A DNA stretch of 64,000 nucleotides. Origin: an uncultured Pelagibacteraceae bacterium (GTDB lineage Bacteria; Pseudomonadota; Alphaproteobacteria; Pelagibacterales; Pelagibacteraceae). The position numbers and the translations under genes were made by a program. The notes under the pieces were generated by a model. That model saw only the letters and a program-made list of their open reading frames with translations. It was not told where the DNA came from and ran no database searches. The DNA is taken from positions 62,001 through 126,000 of the forward strand of contig CABZXO010000002.1 of NCBI GenBank assembly GCA_902529645.1. Reading direction: 5' to 3'. Positions 44,501 through 47,481 of the stretch are shown one piece after another (within the stretch, counting starts at the first letter, position 1; every line of letters begins with the position of its first letter).

Positions 44501-44923
44501 TTGAAAAATAATATTTCAGATAAAGATAAGAAAGATTGGGATGAATTTACTAAGAGTAAAGAAAAACTACCAAATAAAGATATTAAGTATAGGGAAAACA
44601 ATAAAGTCAAAATAAGATCAATTGATTTGCATGGTTACACTTTAGATGGAGCAAATAAGGCTGTAGAGGATTTTATAACCAAATCATTTGAAGAAAATGT
44701 AAATAAGTTGATCGTAGTTACAGGAAAAGGACTTCATTCAGATAATGAAAAAGATCCATATGTTTCAAAAGACTTTGGTATTTTAAAATATTCTATTCCT
44801 GAATTCATTTCAAATCACAGCAATTTAATGGGCATGATTAATGATATGACTGATGCGAAAATAGAAGATGGTGGCAAAGGTGCATTTTATATTTTTTTAA
44901 AAAAAAATAAAATTACAAAATAA
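44501..44923 (+). CDS. Smr domain protein (TTG start)
   Basis: [40 protein letters not shown]. Confidence 0.88.
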
Positions 44924-46286
44924 ACTTTGAGAGATCTGTATCCTTAACGAGTGTATCTAAGTTTTTATTGATGTATTCTTTATTTATAATAATTTTTTCA
45001 CCAGCACGATCAGTAGCTGTGAAACTTATTTCATCTAAAATCTTTTCAATAATAGTATGAAGTCTTCTGGCTCCAATATTTTCTACAGTTGCATTTACTT
45101 CTGAAGCTATGTTTGCAATTGCATCTATACCATCGTCTGAAAACTCTAAATCAACATTTTCGGTTTTTAAAAGGGCAACATATTGTTTAATTAAACTAAA
45201 ATCTGGCTCTCTTAAAATTCTCTTAAAATCCTCACTTGTTAAAGCTTCTAATTCAACTCTTATAGGTAATCTCCCTTGTAATTCTGGAAGTAGATCAGAT
45301 GGTTTTGCTAGCTGAAATGCACCAGAGGCAATGAACAAAATATGATCTGTTTTTATTGGACCGTGTTTTGTGTTAACAGTTGTTCCTTCTATTAAAGGTA
45401 ACAAATCTCTTTGAACACCTTCTCTTGAAACATCGCCACCAACTCTGTCAGTTCTTGCTGAAATTTTATCTATTTCGTCGAGAAATACTATTCCATTATT
45501 TTCTGTTGAGAGTTTTGCAGCTTTAATAATTTTATCTTGTTCGATTAGTTTATCTGACTCGTCATTAATTAAAATTTCATGAGACTCTTTGACGGTCATT
45601 TTTTTCTTTTTTTCTTTGGTTCCCATTGATTTTCCAATCATTTCACCAATGTTGATCATTCCAACATTAGCTCCAGGCATCCCAGGAATTTCAAAAGATG
45701 TACCACCTGAACCAGTGTCGCTCACTGCAATTTCTATTTCGTTATCGTCCAAATCTCCGTTTCTAAGTCTTTTTCTAAAACTTTCTCTAGTAGCTAAACT
45801 TGCTTTTTTTCCAACCAAAGCATCTAAAACTTTTTCTTCTGCAGCTTTCTGAGCTTTTGCAAAAACTTCTTTTCTTTTCTTTACTTTTTCCATTGAGATA
45901 GCTATCTCAATTAAATCTCTTACAATTTGCTCTACATCTCTACCAACGTAACCAACTTCAGTGAATCTTGTAGCCTCAACTTTTACAAAAGGAGCTTCCG
46001 CTAGTTTAGATAATCTTCTCGAAATTTCAGTTTTTCCAACACCTGTTGGTCCAATCATTAAAATATTTTTAGGTAAAACTTCATTTTTCATTTCACCTTT
46101 AAGAGCTTGTCTTCTCCATCTATTTCTTAATGCCACAGCAACAGCCCTCTTTGCTTTGTTTTGCCCAACAACAAATCTATCTAATTCTGAAACTATTTCT
46201 CTTGGCGATAAAGAACTGACCAAAGAAGCTTCTTCTTTTTGATTTTTATCTTTTGGGTGTAGTTGTGTTACGTTTGATTTATCCAT
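44913..46286 (-). CDS. hslU: ATP-dependent protease ATPase subunit HslU
   Basis: [46 protein letters not shown]-terminal DLSKFIL. Confidence 0.98.
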
Positions 46287-46801
46287 TATATTTTTTCAAT
46301 TTTAACGTTATGATTTGTAAAAACACATATATCTGCTGCTACTTTGATTGCTTTTTTTGCAACTTCCTCAGCTGAAATGTTGCCTTCCATCAAAACTTTT
46401 CCAGCAGCTAGAGCATAATTTCCTCCAGAACCAATTCCTATCACGTCTCCCTCTGGCTCAAGCACATCACCAGTTCCAGAAATAATATAACTGTTATTTT
46501 TATCACCAACAGCCATGAGTGCCTCTAATCTTCTTAAGTATTTATCTGTTCTCCAGTCTTTTGCTAATTCAACAGCAGCTCTAGACAAATTTCCAGCATG
46601 TTTTTCAAGTTTACCTTCTAATCTTTCAAATAAAGTTAATGCATCAGCAGTAGATCCTGCAAATCCTGCTACTACATCTCTTTTTTCAATTTTTCTAACT
46701 TTTGAAGCTGTGCCTTTTACAACAGTATTTCCCATACTTACTTGTCCATCACCAGCAACCACTACTTCATTATTTTTTCTAACTAATACAATTGTTGTCA
46801 T
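46286..46801 (-). CDS. hslV: ATP-dependent protease subunit HslV
   Basis: [30 protein letters not shown]. Confidence 0.98.
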
Positions 46802-46808
46802 AATTGAT

Positions 46809-46836
46809 AAATGGTAACTATTTTTGATACTTCAAG
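46809..46836 (-). promoter_or_regulatory. candidate RpoH-type promoter for hslVU: CTTGAA-N14-TACCATTT
   Basis: Exact CTTGAA -35 and CCCCATNT-like -10; ends only 7 nt upstream of the hslV ATG. Confidence 0.6.
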
Positions 46837-46890
46837 TGTTCAGACTGATATTGATATAGTGAGATTATGTATGTATACCATTAAAAATAT

Positions 46891-47481
46891 ATGGCTAGAA
46901 AAGGAAAAGTATCTCGAAAAACAAAAGAAACTAGTATCAATGTTGAGGTTAATATTGATGGTAAAGGAAAGTATCAAATTGACACTGGTATAGGTTTTTT
47001 AGATCACATGCTTGAACAATTGTCAAAGCATTCATTAATAGATTTAAAAGTAAAAGCTAAAGGTGATACTCATATTGATCTTCACCATACCACAGAAGAT
47101 ACAGGAATCGCTATAGGTGAGGCTTTAAAAAAGGCTGCTAAAAAATTTGTAGGAATAAAGAGATATGCTCACACCGTGATTCCAATGGACGAAACATTAA
47201 CAAGAGTAGCTATTGATGTTTCAAACAGGCCCTATTTAATTTGGAAAGTAAAATTAAAAGTTGAAAAACTTGGCGAGATGGACACAGAATTGTTTAAAGA
47301 ATGGTTTCAAGCTTTTTCTCAATCTGCTGGTATTACAATGCATATAGAAAATATTTATGGTGACAATAGCCATCACATAATTGAGTCTTGTTATAAGGCA
47401 TTAGCAAGATCGTTAAGAGCTGCGTTAGAGATGGATCCAAGAAATAAGAAAAGCATTCCATCAACTAAAGGCTCATTATAA
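46891..47481 (+). CDS. hisB: imidazoleglycerol-phosphate dehydratase
   Basis: [38 protein letters not shown]. Confidence 0.98.

Follow-up and report, generated by a model that had tools for sequence, protein, structure and literature searches.

The best reading of the region upstream of hslV in this SAR11 genome, and one that we hold to be highly probable, is that an RpoH-driven promoter lies so close to the start codon that the hslV(U) mRNA is leaderless. SAR11 bacteria are abundant in the ocean. The window, i.e., the whole stretch of DNA that was analysed (64 kb, from an uncultured member of the Pelagibacteraceae), contains the following features of interest:

46831..46836, minus strand: CTTGAA, -35 element of the hslV promoter, read directly
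46809..46815, minus strand: ACCATTT, -10 element of the hslV promoter (CCATTT = 46809-46814)
46802..46808, minus strand: 7-nt gap between the -10 element and the hslV start codon, free of a Shine-Dalgarno sequence
46801, minus strand: predicted hslV transcription start, at the A of the ATG (+/- about 2 nt)
46286..46801, minus strand: hslV, peptidase subunit of HslVU, 171 aa, MTTIVLVRK... (TIGR03692, E=3.7e-79)
44913..46286, minus strand: hslU, ATPase subunit of HslVU (TIGR00390, E=2.7e-179)
46874..46879, plus strand: TATACC, -10-like element of the hisB promoter, with -35-like TTGATA at 46851-46856 and a spacer of 17
46891..47481, plus strand: hisB (NF002109, E=1.8e-101)

An earlier note on this DNA had described the layout as CTTGAA-N14-TACCATTT-atcaatt-ATG, with only 7 nt between the -10-like element and the start codon, and both statements were confirmed base for base. 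On the minus strand, CTTGAA (46836-46831) is followed by 14 nt, TACCATTT (46816-46809), atcaatt (46808-46802) and the ATG (46801-46799). The same promoter can be written as CTTGAA-N15-ACCATTT, which equals N16-CCATTT, followed by 7 nt and ATG; N15-ACCATTT is the more natural notation and puts hslV in register with the promoters that this genome has at groES, dnaK and hsp20. CTTGAA-N15-17-CCAYNT matched once in the 64-kb window, where shuffles predicted 0.30 matches, and once N4-10-ATG was appended the hslV site was the only match in all 1.29 Mb of the genome. The reversed version of this longer pattern, used as a control, had no match here and averaged about 0.4 matches per genome, and a genome scan with altered spacing (N13-15 before CCAYNT) recovered no hslV promoters. 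With hsp20 set aside, the remaining CTTGAA matches inspected in this genome lay mostly within open reading frames.

The hslV start is well fixed, as had been claimed. The TIGR03692 profile (264 bits vs a cut-off of 158) begins at residue 2, with the catalytic Thr directly after Met; the reading frame upstream is closed by a TGA about 10 codons away, with no in-frame ATG, GTG or TTG in between; and every one of the 83 same-genus genomes has an ATG at the same position. The start codon is ATG in all 105 SAR11-order genomes (83/83 of the genus and 22/22 of the sister family). In the sister family, HslV carries a short propeptide before the Thr, ending in WHG or a close variant, and a second genus of Pelagibacteraceae (L343) also retains a propeptide, with a gap of 9 nt to the ATG. 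Comparison of L343 and L085-L092 with the window indicates that this N-terminal propeptide (such as MENQ...WHG) was lost within the Pelagibacteraceae, yet the start codon still lies beside the promoter.

Lack of conservation of the two boxes had been named as an observation that would refute the proposal, and the comparison with relatives did not refute it. Both boxes were kept, with a 7-nt gap in 83/83 same-genus genomes and with 9-10 nt in 22 sister-family genomes, so that the promoter adjoins the start in all 105 SAR11-order genomes where the site was readable. The same-genus upstream regions (73 distinct 40-mers) aligned without gaps. All six bases of CTTGAA were invariant, as were the C, C, A and last T of the -10 element, while the T after CCA was present in 81/83; the distance to the ATG was exactly 7 nt throughout. 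The five columns next to the ATG were among the least conserved (0.20-0.78 bit), and position -1 was a pyrimidine (T or C) in 77/83. The sister family showed the same promoter type in 22/22 genomes, as CTTGAA-N16-CCACAT, with CTTGAA in 21 and GTTGAA in one. The sequences within each family are related, and the 83 genomes therefore do not stand for 83 independent events.

In other proteobacteria, RpoH is known to control hslV. The SAR11 genome analysed here encodes RpoH (TIGR02392, 363 bits vs a curated cut-off of 323), and promoters of the same type and register as that of hslV precede dnaK (CTTGTA-N15-CCTATAT), groES (CTTGAA-N15-TCTATAT) and hsp20 (CTTGAA-N15-CCCATAT). The proposal of an RpoH-like promoter is thus supported and the sigma-32 reading well founded, and we infer from these sequences that RpoH uses the hslV promoter in the cell. 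The hslV -10 element ACCATTT agrees with the Sinorhizobium meliloti RpoH1 consensus CCTATAT at 4 of 7 positions, a weaker match than that of the -35 element; its core C, A and T are invariant, and the dnaK, groES and hsp20 sites form intermediates toward CCTATAT. All four sites are similar to the full consensus, CTTGAA-N15-16-CCTATAT (PMC4843759). ClpB, sought as a further RpoH gene, was absent from the genome, in which only HslU and other weak AAA matches were recovered.

The members of this putative regulon differ in the distance from the -10 element to the start codon, which is 7 nt for hslV vs 23 for dnaK, 37 for groES and 62 for hsp20, and the groES and hsp20 leaders carry AGGAG. Other SAR11-order genomes gave 24-49 nt for groES (83 at one uncertain site), 18-31 for dnaK and 57-58 for hsp20. 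The hsp20 leader (L334, G000:C9:30121 onward; about 55 nt) recalls a ROSE thermometer in its hairpin-like stretch and in CTTGC...AAAGGAGG, and is possibly thermosensing. Rfam searches of the hsp20, hslV, groES and dnaK loci gave no thermometer match; one weak HOTAIR match in the heat-shock loci was dismissed as chance.

At Ehrlichia sigma-32 promoters with mapped starts, transcription begins 5-8 nt beyond the -10 hexamer, in most cases 7, with clpA as an outlier (PMC3836757); the promoters behind this distance rule include groE TATATAtgatctT, grpE TATATAtttcttA and dnaK TATATCtgtgattA. With the hslV hexamer taken as CATTTA, the rule would put +1 at the A of the ATG, give or take about 2 nt, and a start 1-2 nt further downstream would truncate the AUG. 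Applied to the sister family, the rule predicts leaders of 2-3 nt; where the gap is 10 nt, 19 of 20 sequences, read by eye, have an A at the expected +1. Our literature search found no 5'-end maps of SAR11 hslV.

hslV and hslU form an operon on the minus strand, divergent from hisB. The hslV stop and the hslU ATG overlap as TAATG (46284-46288), as in 30/30 genomes checked, and in these 30 genomes the 22 bases preceding the overlap showed no Shine-Dalgarno sequence for hslU. Given this overlap, hslU translation probably relies on ribosomes arriving from hslV, and both subunits would therefore depend on the 5'-terminal AUG. In the proposed mechanism, both genes would be transcribed from the sigma-32 (RpoH) promoter, with 7 nt left between its -10 element and the start codon. 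RNA polymerase would initiate at or no more than about 2 nt from the A of the ATG, yielding an hslVU mRNA with a leader of 0-2 nt. The ribosome would then recognize the 5'-terminal AUG without a Shine-Dalgarno sequence or standby leader, presumably by 70S-type initiation, and hslU would be translated next by coupling through the start/stop overlap.

The earlier note had expected no room for a Shine-Dalgarno sequence before hslV, and none occurs there, either in the window or in the 83 + 1 + 22 SAR11-order sequences examined. This absence is not itself unusual here and is weak evidence for a leaderless hslV, because only 8 of the 64 predicted genes in the window have a Shine-Dalgarno-like string. 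Most genes of this genome seem to start translation without a Shine-Dalgarno sequence, and the telling feature of hslV is its fixed short gap. A search of the assembly, which is incomplete, did not recover the 16S 3'-end pattern; AGGAG at groES and hsp20 suggests that an anti-Shine-Dalgarno sequence is in use. TATAAT-like boxes 5-13 nt before start codons were not enriched among 32 window genes (6 vs 6.6 expected), which argues, within this small sample, against leaderlessness being simply a genome-wide tendency. The first 60 nt of the predicted hslV mRNA fold weakly (z = +1.03), with the AUG unpaired in the minimum-energy structure, in agreement with Caulobacter, whose leaderless mRNAs were reported to have unstructured starts (PMC4117421). 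All leaderless mRNAs mapped in S. meliloti start with AUG (PMC3616915).

A RegA/ActR-like response regulator of SAR11 (L402, G000:C17 near 15270; L372-L401) is a second conserved near-leaderless candidate. A CYATAT box lies shortly before its ATG, at 7 nt in 21/31 sequences and at 8-10 nt in 7/31, and most have CTTGAA or ATTGAA upstream of the box.

We also surveyed the class with one genome per alphaproteobacterial family, searching for RpoH-type sites within 120 nt upstream of 85 hslV genes. Such sites were found in 58 of the 85 families, vs 3.6 in shuffles. Fifteen lay 7-11 nt from the start codon (0.4 at 4-12 nt in shuffles), two at 13-15 nt, none at 16-22 nt and the rest at 23 nt or more, with an abrupt onset at 7; a Shine-Dalgarno-like string accompanied just 2 of the 15 sites at 7-11 nt. 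The empty range of 16-22 nt is what one would expect if genes either lack a leader or have one long enough for a Shine-Dalgarno sequence. Start codons in this survey were assigned automatically by taking the closest ATG in frame, a rule that fails in some genes (e.g., L416), so that individual cases may be off.

Three other explanations were weighed against an RpoH-driven leaderless mRNA. The strongest of them, which we nevertheless consider improbable, accepts the promoter and assigns the main mRNA to a second, upstream promoter with an ordinary leader, leaving the abutting boxes a minor or heat-only role. Dual starts are indeed common, as 59 of 171 leaderless S. meliloti genes had another transcription start too (PMC3616915). 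Against this stands the lack of room: only 89 bp separate hslV from the divergent hisB, and the upstream half is occupied by the hisB promoter, which fills the rest of the intergenic region and whose GTATAC/GTATAT core recurs in most relatives. Moreover, the hslV strand showed no sigma-70-like match upstream of the gene (46802-47050), and none of the 105 SAR11-order genomes has a Shine-Dalgarno sequence before hslV. Within 46851-46890, the hisB promoter itself (TTGATA-N17-TATACC) ends 11 nt before the hisB ATG, and the hisB leader may therefore be only about 4 nt long.

It is less probable still, and in our view quite unlikely, that the boxes form a housekeeping sigma-70 promoter (TTGAAG-N16-CATTTA) and that hslV is leaderless but constitutive. 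Such a promoter would not account for the invariance of the C that opens CTTGAA or of the CC in front of the A, and the -10 sequences (CATTTA, CATCTA; CACATA-like in the sister family) are far from TATAAT. It also sits poorly with the RpoH dependence of hslV in other proteobacteria and with the motif shared by dnaK, groES and hsp20 here. In its favour, the -35 elements of both sigma factors overlap (TTGA), and in Ehrlichia the promoters of the two are much alike (PMC3836757). Finally, there might be no promoter at all, or the true hslV start might lie elsewhere. AT-rich DNA does yield spurious promoter-like matches, and our scan found 4 where 2.1 were expected. Conservation makes such an artefact very unlikely, to the point that we give it almost no weight: the arrangement is invariant in 83 genomes and unique in this one, no alternative start codon exists, and the profile begins at the Thr. 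Together, the results support hslV as a well-conserved, putatively leaderless mRNA transcribed from an alternative-sigma promoter.

Leaderless mRNAs are common in Alphaproteobacteria, and their purpose is unclear. We tentatively suggest, as a speculative idea that we consider rather unlikely, that leader type could be a selected, gene-specific second layer of control within the RpoH regulon. groES and hsp20 would carry Shine-Dalgarno leaders, hslVU would be leaderless across SAR11 and some other alphaproteobacterial families, and hslVU translation would thereby escape stress limits on leadered mRNAs. A stress advantage for leaderless hslVU translation is only a possibility. The MazF stress-ribosome model was not reproduced by other laboratories, although leaderless translation reportedly increases under oxidative stress (PMC9031893); Caulobacter in normal growth translates leaderless and other mRNAs equally well (PMC4117421). 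Whether stress favours leaderless translation is the question for which hslVU, with its 7 nt fixed genus-wide and 7-11 nt in 15/85 families, offers a natural controlled comparison beside leadered members of the same regulon. hslV also shows how streamlined genomes can dispense with an untranslated leader.

Leaderless mRNAs and RpoH promoters are both known, and we found their conserved pairing undescribed. Mapped leaderless mRNAs number 375 in Caulobacter (PMC4117421), 171 in S. meliloti (PMC3616915) and 192 exactly at the start codon in Bradyrhizobium (PMC4842269); the main texts of these three papers do not name hslV. The SAR11 hslV mRNA, from the same bacterial class, would likewise have its 5' end at the A of an AUG start codon, but this end is predicted, whereas those of the three other organisms were mapped by sequencing. 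The S. meliloti RpoH1 promoter, CTTGAA-N15-16-CCTATAT (PMC4843759), is identical to that of hslV in the -35 element and spacing and has a -10 element of the same type; hslV differs in its ACCATTT and in a distance to the start codon that leaves no leader. Ehrlichia chaffeensis, likewise an alphaproteobacterium, has an hslVU operon with a sigma-32-type promoter and a mapped start, but its -35 TTTACA and -10 TATAGA differ from those of SAR11 (PMC3836757). A parallel in architecture comes from the '-10 region adjacent to ORF' genes of Deinococcus-Thermus, in which the -10 element also lies a few bp before the ORF, at a required spacing, and the mRNA is leaderless (PMC12340547). There the element is the housekeeping motif TANNNT, serving about one third of D. 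radiodurans genes (PMC12340547), whereas in SAR11 an RpoH-type promoter with an invariant -35 element serves one heat-shock operon.
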